From a virus: DNA of 30,592 nucleotides. Location: positions 1 to 30,592 of the IMG/VR virus record IMGVR_UViG_3300022542_000566. The stretch is one strand, 5' to 3'. The notes under the pieces were generated by a model that did not search any database, was not told the origin of the DNA, and was given only the letters and a program-made list of their open reading frames with translations. Of the stretch, positions 7,618 through 13,928 are shown in pieces; positions within the stretch are counted from its first letter, which is position 1; the number at the start of each line of letters is the position of its first letter. Position numbers and translations under genes: made by a program.

Positions 7618-8451
7618 GTGGAGTGGACAAATAAATTTTTATTGCCCCCTCGTGTTATACGAGTCTTAAAAGGGAAATATAAAGAACACAGACCGGAGTT
7701 AAACAGACTAAGTATTACTGATTTAATTGACGACCCACTACCAAGAATATTATTTATCAATCATTGGGATGATATAGTACGTGATTATTCTGACCTAATA
7801 ACTATGGTACAGGGTATATCCTTACATAGTAGATATGAGGATTGTGCTTTAGGTGGTGTGGATGTTGAGCGTAAGTTTGAGGATGTTATTGATGGGGTGA
7901 TTGTAGTAGGCAAAGCTGATTGGTATGAAGAGCCTTTGCTATTGGAGTTGAAACAAACAGGGGTGTACGGCCCAAAGTATAGAATACCCAAGTGGACTAA
8001 ACAGATGAACTGTTATGATTGGCAAAGACATAATAGAGGGTACCCAGTAGAAGAATTAGGTGTTGATATATGGTATAGGGATTGGAAGCAGGGAAATGTG
8101 TACTGGAGGGATTACCCGCCTATACCCTATGAGTATATCCGCTTAGACTTGTGGGATTTTGATAAGCAAAATGAGTATATTCACAGTCAAGTGGCAAAAC
8201 ATCTTGCCCATCCCATATATGATATACCGCAGGAGTATGATATACCTTGCAGCGACAAGCAAAGGGGGATACGATTTGAAGCATACAAAGGAAAAAACAA
8301 GACTCCGAGTAAAGTAGGTGATACATCTTCGGAAGTAGAAATATGGTGTGGGCAGCAACCACAAAAGTTTAACATACAAAAAAGTGAGCCTAAATTTTGC
8401 AGATTATACTGTAAAAGTCGCTCTATCTGCCCCTTCTCAGGAGTAAAATAG
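7618..8451 (+). CDS. RecB/Cas4-like PD-(D/E)XK nuclease with 4Fe-4S cysteines
   Basis: GTG 7618 follows AAAGGAGAT. The 277-residue protein contains the RecB-nuclease pattern: a His in GISLHSRYED (His70), GKADW (Asp101) and LLLELKQTG with Glu110 and Lys112, then a QMNCYDW helix. Four Cys residues at 211, 261, 265 and 271 (the last three in FCRLYCKSRSICPF) match the iron-sulfur cluster of Cas4 and AddB nucleases. Enzymes of this type resect DNA ends for recombination or replication repair; phage copies are common. The stop overlaps the next gene's GTG start. Part of the 3' end appears to recur about 0.4 kb downstream. Confidence 0.82.
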   Translation: MEWTNKFLLPPRVIRVLKGKYKEHRPELNRLSITDLIDDPLPRILFINHWDDIVRDYSDLITMVQGISLHSRYEDCALGGVDVERKFEDVIDGVIVVGKADWYEEPLLLELKQTGVYGPKYRIPKWTKQMNCYDWQRHNRGYPVEELGVDIWYRDWKQGNVYWRDYPPIPYEYIRLDLWDFDKQNEYIHSQVAKHLAHPIYDIPQEYDIPCSDKQRGIRFEAYKGKNKTPSKVGDTSSEVEIWCGQQPQKFNIQKSEPKFCRLYCKSRSICPFSGVK

Positions 8452-8663
8452 TGAAGCAAATTAACGGTACGGCGAATTGTATTAGGGGCGGAGAAGGTAG
8501 CCCCAATCACAAACTAACAGAACAAGACGTAAGAATGATTATTTATATGTGGAGAACTAATTTATTTTTACAGCGAGAAATCGCTGAGATGTATAATAGT
8601 ACAAGAAGAAATATTAGCAGTATTGTAAACAAAAGAACTTGGAAACATATTTGGGAGAAATAA
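8451..8663 (+). CDS. Stand-alone helix-turn-helix protein related to the homing endonuclease C-terminus
   Basis: A 70-residue protein starts at GTG 8451, overlapping the nuclease stop. Apart from a short N-terminus it aligns with the last part of the HNH protein at 1251: KLTEQDVRMIIYMWRTNLF against KLKEQDVRITVYMYKIGKF, AEMYNSTRRNISSIVNKR against AEIYGVKRQTISDIINKR, and both end WK(H/Y)IW. It keeps the DNA-binding module but has no HNH nuclease. It may be a remnant of a homing endonuclease or a reused regulator or DNA-binding adaptor. It lies between the nuclease gene and a duplicated piece of that gene's end. Confidence 0.65.
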   Translation: MKQINGTANCIRGGEGSPNHKLTEQDVRMIIYMWRTNLFLQREIAEMYNSTRRNISSIVNKRTWKHIWEK

Positions 8664-9119: not shown

Positions 9120-9219
9120 TTGTAACCGACATTATATGTGTAAAAAATGTTGGGGTGAAATTATAGAAGAAGAGCGTAGGAAGTTAAAATTAGATAGTGG
9201 AAAGGAAGAATATGAGTAG
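9091..9219 (+). CDS. Cys/His micro-protein (zinc-knuckle-like), 42 aa
   Basis: ATG 9091 has a perfect AAGGAG site at 9082-9087. The 42-residue product contains DCDCNRHYMCKKCWGE, giving Cys and His residues suited to bind zinc, followed by a charged helix (IIEEERRKLKLD). It overlaps the gene before and the exonuclease gene after, and its end supplies that gene's ribosome-binding site. Too short for most gene finders. Probably a small zinc-binding accessory protein; function unknown. Confidence 0.55.
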   Translation: MKDGDINDCDCNRHYMCKKCWGEIIEEERRKLKLDSGKEEYE

Positions 9220-9922
9220 TAAACTAAAATACACAGACGACCTGCCAATTTATATGGTGGGGCTAACAAACATTAAGAACGCTAACTCCATCCAGTACCA
9301 GTGGTTATGGGAGAATGGGTGCATTCATCGGCATAGATATAGTAGGCATTTTAGTTGTTTTATAAAGAAGTATGGTATCAAAGAACGAGTTGGGTGGATT
9401 GATATTGAAACATCAAATCTAAAAGCTAACTTTGGCATAGTGCTATGCTGGTGTATTCTTGCAGAGGATGGTATTTTATACCAGGATTGGCTCACTAAGA
9501 AAGATGTACTATCTGGTGATGAGGATAAGCGGGTAGTTAGTACTTGTATTGATACTATGCAATCCTTTGATAGAGTAGTGGGGCATTACAGTACCTACTT
9601 TGATATACCCTTCTTGAGAACTCGTGCTCTTATACACGGATTACCTTATCCTGAGTTTGGTACATTGCTCCACACAGATGTTTGGCGTATGGCTAAGACC
9701 AAATTATGCTTGCACTCCAATAGACAGGATGTAATAGCTGAGTCTTTGTATGGCAAGACAGTTAAGACCCGTATTTCCCACCCGCATTGGAGACAGGCTA
9801 TGATGGGAAATGAAGAATCCTGTATGCAAGTTTTAGACCACTGCCAAAAGGATGTGCAAGACCTAAAGAAGAATTATGAGACTCTTCTTCCTTATTGCAG
9901 AATTACCAAAAGCTCTATTTAA
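9212..9922 (+). CDS. DnaQ-like DEDD 3'-5' exonuclease
   Basis: Start ATG 9212 follows AAAGGAAG. The 236-residue protein has an N-terminal region with helix-turn-helix flavour (residues 1-58) and then a ribonuclease H-fold exonuclease: WIDIETSNL with Asp64 and Glu66 (ExoI), VVGHYSTYFDIPFL with Asp131 (ExoII), and LDHCQKDVQDL with His210 and Asp214 (ExoIII, DEDDh type). It resembles the YprB/DnaQ group that removes nucleotides from 3' ends using two metals. It could supply proofreading or strand processing, which is of interest because the polymerase exonuclease domain in this genome is split. Confidence 0.8.
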   Translation: MSSKLKYTDDLPIYMVGLTNIKNANSIQYQWLWENGCIHRHRYSRHFSCFIKKYGIKERVGWIDIETSNLKANFGIVLCWCILAEDGILYQDWLTKKDVLSGDEDKRVVSTCIDTMQSFDRVVGHYSTYFDIPFLRTRALIHGLPYPEFGTLLHTDVWRMAKTKLCLHSNRQDVIAESLYGKTVKTRISHPHWRQAMMGNEESCMQVLDHCQKDVQDLKKNYETLLPYCRITKSSI

Positions 9923-11149: not shown

Positions 11150-11563
11150 ATGGATATTAAGAAAAGTACAAATAGGGGCTTGTGGTATTTTGCACACCCA
11201 TATAGTTGTAGGGATAAGGATGGCAATTTTGTCCCAGAGGGTGAGGAAGCGAATTTTTATATTTGTAACATGCGGTCGGCAGAGCTACTGATGCGGGGTT
11301 ATAATGTTTATTCTCCAATTTCTCATACGCACCCCATACATAGGGCTTGTCCTGAGTTTCTTGCAAAGCATGAGCATGAACTGTGGTATCAACTGGACAA
11401 TGAGTTTATTGATAAAACAAGTTGGGCTGGTATAATCCTTGCTCCTGGTTGGGAGAAATCATCCGGTTGTAAGGCAGAGAAGGAAAGAATTGAGGCAAGA
11501 GGGTTGCCAGCTTTGTACTACTTGGATATAATGGATGACTTTTATCCTAAGATGGTGGAATGA
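11150..11563 (+). CDS. DUF1937/deoxyribosyltransferase-like protein
   Basis: ATG 11150 is preferred over ATG 11135 because GAGAGGGG lies at 11137-11144. The 137-residue protein contains YFAHPYSCRD, MRSAELLMRGYNVYSPISHT, ELWYQLDNEFIDKTS and IILAPGWEKSSGC followed by KAEKERIEARGLP. This is the nucleoside deoxyribosyltransferase-like fold of DUF1937/DUF4406 proteins, with a PGWxxSxG loop that binds a nucleotide and Glu residues as candidate catalysts. Function in phages is unsettled: nucleotide salvage or binding of nucleotide signals are possible. The stop overlaps the polymerase start by 4 bases. Confidence 0.7.
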   Translation: MDIKKSTNRGLWYFAHPYSCRDKDGNFVPEGEEANFYICNMRSAELLMRGYNVYSPISHTHPIHRACPEFLAKHEHELWYQLDNEFIDKTSWAGIILAPGWEKSSGCKAEKERIEARGLPALYYLDIMDDFYPKMVE

Positions 11564-11850
11564 AAACACAGGTGATAACAACCCCCACCGACTTCAAGAA
11601 TTGGATGTCTACCTGTAAAGGCATCTTCTCATTAGATACAGAATGTACATCTCTTAATTGGTTAGACCTTGAAATAATAGGCTTCTCAATTTGTGATGGA
11701 AAGCAAGCGTGTTATGTTGATATAAAGAGGGGGCATAAGAAAGAGTTGTTGGTGGTTCTTGACTACTATATATCCGAAAGTAAAATGGTAATATTTCATT
11801 CAGCCTCATTTGATATGATGGTTCTCAAAAAGGAGGGAATAGAAATATGA
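11560..11850 (+). CDS. polA: DNA polymerase I (family A), N-terminal fragment with ExoI and ExoII motifs
   Basis: A 96-residue fragment of the 3'-5' exonuclease domain. It holds ExoI (FSLDTECTSLNW, Asp26 and Glu28) and ExoII (FHSASFDMMVL, Asp85), and stops at KKEGIEI. In intact family A polymerases this point continues into a YLLDE segment; here that segment begins the next polymerase fragment at 12006 (SHLLDENLLENGLKYL) with no apparent loss of residues. The interruption is the 52-codon gene at 11847, whose start overlaps this stop in ATGA. The exonuclease site would have to be assembled from two polypeptides. Confidence 0.8.
   Translation: MKTQVITTPTDFKNWMSTCKGIFSLDTECTSLNWLDLEIIGFSICDGKQACYVDIKRGHKKELLVVLDYYISESKMVIFHSASFDMMVLKKEGIEI
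11831..11837 (+). promoter_or_regulatory. Strong ribosome-binding site embedded in the polymerase N-terminal fragment
   Basis: AGGAGGG lies 9 bases before ATG 11847 and codes for part of KKEGIEI. A full Shine-Dalgarno site at the exact break supports genuine translation of the inserted zinc-ribbon gene and argues against a sequencing error. Confidence 0.7.
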
Positions 11851-12005
11851 TTGATACTAGAAAGTATCCTTGTCCAAAATGTAGTACCGGTGAGTTATAT
11901 GATACTGGTAGTATGTTTATACAAGAAATAGAATGTGATAATCCTGATTGTAACTATAAGTGGTTAGATACTTGTGGTGTTGTATCTGGGGATATAACTG
12001 ATTAA
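11847..12005 (+). CDS. Zinc-ribbon micro-protein inserted in the polymerase gene, 52 aa
   Basis: A 52-codon gene between the two polymerase fragments: its ATG overlaps the first stop and its TAA directly abuts the ATG of the second. It encodes KYPCPKCSTGELYDTGSMF, then ECDNPDCNYKW, with Cys-x2-Cys and Cys-x4-Cys as in zinc ribbons that bind nucleic acid. It has its own strong ribosome-binding site. The insert is about 158 bases, too short for a normal group I intron or an intein. It might act in trans, help the two polymerase pieces assemble, or be a passenger of a mobile unit. Confidence 0.7.
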   Translation: MIDTRKYPCPKCSTGELYDTGSMFIQEIECDNPDCNYKWLDTCGVVSGDITD

Positions 12006-13463
12006 ATGCCTAAAATATTTTGTACTCTCACTTCGTCACATCTTTTAGACGAGAATTTATTGGAAAACGGTCTAAAATATTTGACTCGTATTCAACTCCA
12101 TAGAGAAGTAACAGATTATAAAGATGTTATAAAGTATGGTACTAATAGTCCAGAGTTTGCTAAGTACGCTACAGAAGATGCTATCAATACTTACGATTTA
12201 TATAAACTACAGTCACCACAAATAGAGAAAGAAGGTTTACACCACCTTGCTTATGACATTGAGTTTCCGTTTCAAAAAGCGTTGATGTGGCTTGCGATTA
12301 ATGGGATACGAGGAGACGTAAGTGCTGCCAAGACAATGAGATACGAAGTGCAGCATTTATTTTATACAATAGAGAATGAACTATTGAATATATTTGGTGG
12401 TGATTATGTCACCAGCATTACACCAAGAAGCAGAGTGGTGTCTTGTAAACCATCCATAAATTTCAATAGTTCAGACCAAGTAGTTCCCCTGATAGAAGGA
12501 CTGGGATTCCCTATATATGAGAGAAGTAAAAAAGAGAAGAAGAAGTCTTGGAATAAACAGAGCAAGAAAAGGTTAGAGGGAAAGCACCCCGCAATAGATT
12601 TATTAATTAAGTTGGGTAAAGTAGAGAAATTACTTAATGGTTTTTTAATTCCTTTTGAAAGGTTTATAGATGTTGATGGGAGAATTCGTTGTTCTTTTCA
12701 TAACACAGTGTGTGTTACTGGTCGTCTTAGTTGTTCGAGTCCGAACATTGAGCAACTTCCTAAAAATAATGACATTGCCAATATACGTAATTTATTTGTG
12801 GCCGAGCTTGGCAATGTTATTATTACTGCTGATTACTCTGGCCAAGAAGTAAGGATAATGGCTCAGGAGAGCGGTGACAAAACTTTCAAAGATGCTCTCA
12901 TAAACGGATTGGATTTACACCAAGTCACAGCAGATGCAATGGGAGTCAGCCGTGATGATGCTAAATGTATAGTCTTTGGTACAGCTTATGGCAAGTCGGC
13001 TTACGGCTTCTCCAAAGATTTTAATTGTTCAGAAAAAGATGCACAGGCATTTATTGACAGGTTTTTTGCCCGTTATCCAGGACTTAAACAAGCCATTGAA
13101 AAAACTAATGGGCAAATATATAGATATGGGTTTGTTAGGAATATGGCGGGGCGTAAAAGGAGATTCCCCGACTTCCATAGGTTAAATAAGTGGGGTAAAA
13201 AGAGGTGCTATAGACAAGGGTTTAATTTTAAGATTCAAGGTTATGGTGGAGAAGTCCTAAAAAAAGCAGCGTCAGAAGTTGTTAAGAACCTTAAATTAAT
13301 GCTTATCAATTTAGTGCACGATGAGATTGTCGTTGAGTGTGGTAGAGAATACAAAGAAGAAGGTATGAAGTACATTGAACAGTGTATGGTTAAAGCATTA
13401 CCAATATTTATACCTTGGGATATAGATATTAGTTCGGGAGGTTGCTATGGCGAAGCAAAGTAA
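12006..13463 (+). CDS. polA: DNA polymerase I (family A), C-terminal fragment with ExoIII and polymerase domain
   Basis: A 485-residue protein starting at ATG 12006, probably translated by coupling to the zinc-ribbon gene. It begins at SHLLDENLLENGLKYL and has ExoIII YATED (Tyr54, Asp58). The polymerase domain has TGRLSCSSPNIEQLP (238-252), motif A ITADYSGQEVRIMA (273-286, Asp276), motif B with Arg316, Lys320, Phe324 and Tyr328 in the Pol I spacing, and motif C LVHDEIVVE (436-444). All palm catalytic residues are present, so it should copy DNA. Phe324 occupies the position of E. coli Phe762. It would serve as the replicative polymerase with the helicase and primase encoded upstream. Confidence 0.93.
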   Translation: MPKIFCTLTSSHLLDENLLENGLKYLTRIQLHREVTDYKDVIKYGTNSPEFAKYATEDAINTYDLYKLQSPQIEKEGLHHLAYDIEFPFQKALMWLAINGIRGDVSAAKTMRYEVQHLFYTIENELLNIFGGDYVTSITPRSRVVSCKPSINFNSSDQVVPLIEGLGFPIYERSKKEKKKSWNKQSKKRLEGKHPAIDLLIKLGKVEKLLNGFLIPFERFIDVDGRIRCSFHNTVCVTGRLSCSSPNIEQLPKNNDIANIRNLFVAELGNVIITADYSGQEVRIMAQESGDKTFKDALINGLDLHQVTADAMGVSRDDAKCIVFGTAYGKSAYGFSKDFNCSEKDAQAFIDRFFARYPGLKQAIEKTNGQIYRYGFVRNMAGRKRRFPDFHRLNKWGKKRCYRQGFNFKIQGYGGEVLKKAASEVVKNLKLMLINLVHDEIVVECGREYKEEGMKYIEQCMVKALPIFIPWDIDISSGGCYGEAK

Positions 13464-13704
13464 ACCAATACACCTAACCGTACAATGGGGTTATAGGTGT
13501 AAGGCGGCGTGCGATTATTACTGTGGTGTTGTACCTATTGAAGCAATTATTATTGGAGGAGATGGTAGTAGTATACGATGTTGGTCTAAAGGTACATTCA
13601 ACCCTAAAAAGGTTACTTGCAAACGCTGCCTAAAACACCCTAATTATAAAACAGCAATGGATAAAATAAAATACCCATTATTGTTTTGGAAGGAGAATAT
13701 ATAA
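13447..13704 (+). CDS. Cys-rich 85-aa protein with C-terminal YPLLFWK motif
   Basis: ATG 13447 follows GGGAGG and overlaps the polymerase end by 17 bases. The protein has Cys residues in YRCKAACDYYCGVV, SIRCWSKG and VTCKRCLKH, suggesting one or two zinc sites. It ends KIKYPLLFWKENI, and the next protein ends in KKKYPLFYWKDGIV, so the two share a terminal motif. The bases coding this tail also contain the AAGGAG site of the next gene. Function unknown. Confidence 0.6.
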   Translation: MAKQSKPIHLTVQWGYRCKAACDYYCGVVPIEAIIIGGDGSSIRCWSKGTFNPKKVTCKRCLKHPNYKTAMDKIKYPLLFWKENI

Positions 13705-13928
13705 TGCCTGATTGGATTAATTATTATAATGATTACGTTACTGATTCAGCAAGTACAAGTTCAAGTACTTGGGGTTTATCTGCTTCCATACAACAAATGT
13801 ATGAAGAGTATATGCGACAAGACCATATAATGGAACAAATGATGTGTGAAGATGCAGAACGGGAAGCAGAGTTGGAAGAAGATAAAAAGAAGTACCCCTT
13901 GTTTTACTGGAAGGATGGGATAGTATAA
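13704..13928 (+). CDS. Acidic 74-aa protein with C-terminal YPLFYWK motif
   Basis: ATG 13704 shares a base with the previous stop (TAATG) and has AAGGAG upstream, so the longer frame from 13686 is not used. The protein has a Ser/Thr-rich stretch (DSASTSSSTWGLSAS) and an acidic helix (EQMMCEDAEREAELEEDKKK), ending YPLFYWKDGIV. Only the end resembles its neighbour. No family recognised. Confidence 0.58.
   Translation: MPDWINYYNDYVTDSASTSSSTWGLSASIQQMYEEYMRQDHIMEQMMCEDAEREAELEEDKKKYPLFYWKDGIV

Follow-up and report, generated by a model that had tools for sequence, protein, structure and literature searches.

The family A DNA polymerase gene of a 30.6 kb phage contig (the window, by which we mean the whole stretch of DNA that was analysed) is cut inside its exonuclease domain, and the same cut is found in five relatives, each with a different set of genes in the gap. 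We put the probability at roughly three in four (about 0.77) that the two pieces are produced by coupled translation and form a two-chain proofreading polymerase, with the break acting as a hotspot for cargo genes. The split runs through the catalytic domain of a replicative family A exonuclease and is stable, and its six natural variants differ in what fills the gap, which makes two questions directly testable, namely that of a proofreading site built from two chains and that of how phage gain anti-restriction genes inside an essential operon.

The polymerase locus

The relevant features of the window are as follows.

9197-9922, + strand: separate DEDD-type exonuclease (phrog_403, polymerase exonuclease subunit), a conserved neighbour outside the break
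11560-11850, + strand: polymerase piece 1, 96 aa, the N-terminal half of a DEDD 3'-5' exonuclease with ExoI (D26, E28) and ExoII (D85)
11830-11850, + strand: junction sequence AAGGAGGGAATAGAAATATGA, which combines the final codons of piece 1 and its stop with the ribosome site and ATG of the insert
11847-12005, + strand: cargo gene for a 52-aa zinc-ribbon protein with a CPKC...CDNPDC pattern
12003-12008, + strand: TAA-ATG abutment, the cargo stop lying directly before the piece 2 start
12006-13463, + strand: polymerase piece 2, 485 aa, with ExoIII (Y54, D58) and the entire polymerase domain, motifs A to C included

In Pfam, piece 1 matches DNA_pol_A_exo1 (2.6e-9) and piece 2 DNA_pol_A (3.3e-68); in PHROG 17 they match positions 655-748 and 755-1230 respectively. 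The family A patterns for motifs A (DYSxxExR), B (RxxxKxxxFGxxYG) and C (HDE) are all found in piece 2, as DYSGQEVR, RDDAKCIVFGTAYG and HDE respectively, and the residues expected of a DEDD-Y exonuclease are divided between the pieces, with DxE and D in piece 1 and YxxxD in piece 2. The ribosome site of the insert, AAGGAGGG, falls within the final codons of piece 1, the stop of which is overlapped by the zinc-ribbon ATG in an ATGA at 11847-11850. The initial annotation of this DNA had described a polymerase split between ExoI and ExoII on one side and ExoIII with the polymerase domain on the other, and coordinates, frames, Pfam and PHROG matches all agree with this; the ribosome site, the ATGA overlap and the TAA-ATG abutment that it had assigned to the insert were likewise all found.

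The break is exact. When the split sequence ...GIE-I/M-P-K-IFCTL is aligned with ...CRK-I-T-P-D-IFCTM from one of the nearest unsplit polymerases zero residues are lost, which bears out the earlier suggestion that the joined pieces read as one polymerase with little or no loss; a conserved gene is thus interrupted without loss and both pieces are kept, as in genes split by homing endonuclease genes (HEGs). Comparison with E. coli Pol I places the break right after the helix that carries ExoII, at what we take to be about residue 435/436 of that enzyme. A second contig, G001 (51 kb), is 100% identical to the window over 28.4 kb in two stretches that include the polymerase locus, and the two together suggest a genome of ~53.6 kb. 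Because G001 is identical and has other end points, and because the same break is seen in five diverged contigs, the break is not an assembly error.

Distribution and single origin of the split

A search of IMG/VR with piece 2 recovered an identical contig and five relatives (G002, locus L003; G003, L004; G004, L005; G005, L006; G006, L007), and a search with piece 1 returned the same set. The polymerases of the five relatives are 71-76% identical to that of the window (59-70% for the most divergent), and the break is shared by the window and all five of them, these being the six independent genomes known, all metagenome contigs. One difference is that piece 2 of the window (12906-12960) is without ~24 residues before motif B that are present in all the close relatives L003-L006.

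Family-level scans identified about 140 further loci at 22-39% identity. In 89 of the 89 relatives from outside the clade that could be scored, exonuclease and polymerase are encoded in one ORF (86 of these are contigs of IMG/VR and three are phage records, a few being near-duplicates; 57 other loci were unscorable), and among scorable loci it is only in the six clade members that the exonuclease lies in a different ORF from the polymerase, so that the usual one-chain arrangement of family A is absent from 6/6 of them. The split clade is monophyletic with a support of 100/100 in a tree of 36 polymerases, from which G006 was left out as its piece 2 is further broken. The split is therefore derived and has one origin. 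No known-phage relative of piece 1 was found by tblastn, and in bacterial and archaeal genomes only distant, unsplit polymerases were matched. At four other loci (L054, L136, L142 and L090) the polymerase domain is interrupted elsewhere, by a second ORF or a large in-frame insert, and this polymerase family is thus a repeated target of mobile elements.

Cargo genes in the break

The six genomes with the common break carry six different cargo sets, listed here with the insert length, taken as the distance between the final sense codon of piece 1 and the piece 2 ATG.

Window: zinc ribbon, 158 bp
G002: DNA methyltransferase (phrog_757, 2e-63) and a Cys-rich gene, 910 bp
G003: 55-aa membrane peptide, 166 bp
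G004: methyltransferase (phrog_24333, 1e-60) and an MT-A70 methyltransferase, 1241 bp
G005: N6/N4 methyltransferase, 768 bp
G006: another N6/N4-type methyltransferase and a zinc ribbon, 790 bp

All three frames are represented among the inserts. Whatever the cargo, the start of piece 2 overlaps the preceding cargo stop or lies within 1 nt of it (6/6 genomes), and these overlapping or near-abutting stops and starts suggest coupled translation, in which ribosomes would translate piece 1, the cargo and then piece 2. Since start and stop codons are present for each half, the gap can take any gene that preserves these overlaps.

The zinc ribbon of G006 (L007/L009) is 87% identical to that of the window and comes second in the break, behind a methyltransferase; no clear relative of the window's 52-aa protein was found in 50,697 phage records, and its assignment to a zinc-ribbon family has weak database support. 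In almost every relative the break is filled differently, a variation that the letters of the window alone could not reveal. The zinc-ribbon gene had been put forward as the element that splits the polymerase, and this is not supported, nor is a specific tie of the gene to the split, as four of the five other genomes have other genes in its place and in the fifth it follows a methyltransferase; as a cause of the split it is rejected by its absence from 4/6 genomes. It is best read as one passenger among several.

Most of the passengers are DNA methyltransferases, several of them unrelated to one another, which are probably anti-restriction genes; another phage survey also found that, of the known genes, methyltransferases vary most often (PMC7468147). 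Gene content also varies at other junctions of these genomes, which makes the break one variable site among several. It is conceivable, and we suggest it only tentatively, that the two-chain enzyme has been kept through deep divergence because the break is a dedicated exchange site for anti-restriction methylases and other cargo, in which case the conserved edges of the two pieces would serve at once as ribosome site, as stop/start overlap and as an anchor for recombination.

Copies of the gene edges and probable recombination

Searching the seven contigs (279 kb) for the 14-base junction core with at most one mismatch gave eight sense matches, all of them at this locus, and several of the inserts contain partial copies of the polymerase edges. 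In G006 the methyltransferase ends ..AELKEGIEI, running into the zinc-ribbon ATGA. In G004 the stretch before the first methyltransferase reads, in the polymerase frame, FVMMVLLKGGVEI and a stop, compared with SFDCMVLLKEGIEI and a stop in piece 1 of G005 (33/44 nt). When all 2669 ATGA sites of the seven contigs are compared with the tail of piece 1, the copies in G004 (29/33 nt) and G006 (25/33 nt) are the two best non-authentic matches, and a third, shorter tail copy (EGVEI and a stop) precedes the MT-A70 gene of G004. The other edge is copied in G002, where an exact 17-nt piece-2 head (ATACCTAAAATCTTTGA, the consensus with ATA for ATG) lies between the two cargo genes. The best reading of these copies is that they mark one join after another, an edge and its cargo having arrived each time behind cargo already in place. 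Passengers may be exchanged, or added one behind another, by recombination that uses the conserved edges of the pieces as anchors, which would leave partial edge copies between cargo genes as a record of successive joining events.

The percentage identity of piece 2 also shifts sharply near the break in two genomes, from 29-63% in codons 26-75 to about 80% thereafter in G005, and from 77-92% in codons 26-100 to 44-61% thereafter in G006, which may be taken as a sign of recombination there. When the phylogenies of the two pieces were tested for conflict the AU p values were 0.03-0.29, and the case for exchange does not draw on them. Furthermore, the MT-A70 methylase lies inside the break in G004 and just upstream of piece 1 in G003, the two being 86% identical, which indicates that cargo also moves around piece 1. 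The G003 version (L004:2553-3242) has ~50 extra N-terminal residues that resemble the beginning of an endonuclease VII-type protein and may be what is left of an endonuclease, now fused to cargo.

A probable proofreading site on two chains

The catalytic residues of the exonuclease are conserved on both sides of the break, with D26, E28 and D85 of piece 1 invariant in 17 sequences and Y54 and D58 of piece 2 invariant in 36, so that the residues of the exonuclease site lie on two chains, as had been anticipated in the initial annotation. Both pieces are under purifying selection; dN/dS, a rough value here as dS is above 1 and near saturation, is clearly below 1, at about 0.08-0.17 in piece 1 and 0.07-0.10 in piece 2. 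In ExoII the window and G006 have Ser in place of Asn, a change that could weaken proofreading.

AlphaFold predictions were made for single chains. Piece 1 alone gave a pLDDT of 94.3, with the Klenow fragment as its best PDB match (TM 0.82 on the query), and piece 2 alone a pLDDT of 93.8, with matches to the Bst, Taq and Klenow polymerases; each piece thus has a confident fold by itself that corresponds to its part of Pol I. As the gene is cut inside its proofreading part the enzyme is probably assembled from two separate chains, with the proofreading site completed by both.

Alternative explanations

The zinc-ribbon gene could instead be a functional partner of the polymerase, inserted specifically and bridging or regulating the two pieces. 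It does sit exactly in the break, it is translationally coupled and both of its carriers have Ser in ExoII, but unrelated genes stand in the same break in four of the six genomes and in G006 it is found behind a methyltransferase, so a role of this kind would seem very unlikely. There is a slim chance that the polymerase no longer proofreads, or that this task has moved to the DEDD exonuclease near 9200, leaving piece 1 as a dispensable remnant; the separate phrog_403 exonuclease is conserved in the group (5/6 genomes) and two genomes have Ser for the ExoII Asn, but piece 1 is present in 6/6 genomes with every catalytic acid and the low dN/dS given above, and ExoIII in piece 2 is also invariant. 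The move of proofreading to that exonuclease had been offered earlier as an alternative to a two-chain site, and is disfavoured by the conservation of the polymerase's own catalytic residues and by the purifying selection on piece 1.

It is barely credible that the pieces are rejoined into a single chain by intron splicing, protein splicing or ribosomal bypassing. Introns and a split intein are known in phage polymerase genes (PMC6892783; introns are also cited in PMC10580990), but the inserts, at 158-1241 bp and in all frames, are without a common sequence except for the junction copies, and piece 2 retains its own ATG. An intron in the insert was rejected, as no Rfam match was found at E values up to 1 except for a chance snoRNA in piece 2, the inserts are coding and for the most part unrelated, and that of the window is only slightly more structured as RNA than shuffled sequences (z -2.0). 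An intein at the break was rejected too, as the sequence on either side of the join is that of the polymerase to the last residue, with neither intein residues nor spare residues there, and bypassing was rejected because the inserts are too long and occur in all frames; the earlier view that neither intron nor intein is present is thus upheld. A small but real chance remains that the junction copies are a favoured ribosome-binding sequence and not scars, and that cargo turnover here is ordinary mosaicism. The motif does hold a Shine-Dalgarno site and the ATGA, other genes of the group share end peptides (YPLFFWK and QLLFxFM) and other junctions vary; however, the motif core is confined to this locus in 279 kb, the G004 copy in the polymerase frame extends well beyond a ribosome site, and what is copied in G002 is the head of piece 2, where there is no ribosome site. 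We continue to favour a two-chain proofreading polymerase with a cargo hotspot in its break.

Origin of the break

On the reading favoured here a single split took place in the group's ancestor, in the loop after the ExoII helix and with no codon lost, and we see about an even chance that the first invader was a free-standing homing endonuclease. No intact homing endonuclease is present at the break in the six genomes, and the suggestion draws on ~12 leftover codons in G004, on a second break in G006 and on precedent. The G004 codons (MFKRIKDFPNYL..) directly follow piece 1, and their matches in phage records are mostly HNH starts, at weak E-values of 0.3-9. G006 has a further interruption within piece 2, made by a gene of the endonuclease VII type (L007:3210-3674, L007:3635-5539). 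The last part of the G006 polymerase also has an intein in motif A (ADY^CFSPDTEV...KVSITGN^CGQEVR), and is thus spread over three ORFs plus an intein. Elsewhere in the window, at 8451-8663, there is a truncated HNH homing endonuclease remnant, 57 aa of which are 49% identical to the C-terminal part of an intact HNH protein (1239-1769).

Comparison with known split genes

Precedents are found in split polymerase genes of the T4 type and in a split phage reductase gene. Gene 43A/43B of the Aeromonas phages 25 and 44RR likewise encodes a two-chain replicative polymerase with a mobile or other insert, and in phage 25 the two pieces co-purify, with polymerase activity; it differs in being family B and in having a seg homing endonuclease or an untranslated spacer as the insert, and no varied cargo genes or edge scars are described for it in the review (PMC2988022). 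The nrdA/mobE locus of Aeh1 is similarly an essential gene split by a free-standing gene with both chains forming an active enzyme, although it encodes ribonucleotide reductase and its insert is still an endonuclease (PMC2988022). That the split chains of phage 25 and Aeh1 form active enzymes is a precedent for the assembly of two pieces proposed here (PMC2988022). Unlike in these HEG-split genes, the gap contains no intact endonuclease in any of the six genomes.

Within family A, the OM43 phages MEP401 and MEP402 and their relatives encode the polymerase in two ORFs, with a small ORF of unknown function between them in most members, but the break is in the polymerase domain and leaves the exonuclease intact within the first ORF; an intron is considered by the authors, and varying cargo and scars are not reported in the available part of the paper (PMC10580990). 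In Listeria phage P70 a family A polymerase is annotated as two ORFs with an HNH endonuclease between, again a split with an insert, but the break is near motif A and the insert is a homing endonuclease and may be an intron. Phage metagenomic islands and HEG-islands are comparable in that methyltransferases and homing endonucleases were, in one survey, the phage genes exchanged most often, and in that endonuclease genes are often found near polymerase genes; these islands are, in contrast, variable or endonuclease-flanked blocks and not cargo within a stably split polymerase (PMC7468147, PMC10448857). A literature search, thin on subscription papers, found no fixed break in a family A exonuclease with interchangeable non-endonuclease cargo and edge scars. 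Split polymerase and reductase genes of phages are thus precedents, and it is the variable non-endonuclease cargo, the scars and the location of the break, within a family A exonuclease domain, that set the present case apart.

Shared end peptides

Two kinds of end peptide recur among the small genes of these genomes. In the window the genes at 407, 969, 2613, 3747 and 5520 encode small proteins (64-111 aa) that end QL(L/M/T)F.FM(E), a peptide that resembles a sliding-clamp binding motif and is found in up to 12 genes per genome (in G003); a 528-aa protein of G005 has a similar end, QLQFSFMGK. Following the polymerase, two apparently unrelated small genes at 13447-13704 and 13686-13928 have a common C-terminal KYPL(L/F)(F/Y)WK, which is also found in four relatives, and the DNA there combines a ribosome site with a stop/start overlap.
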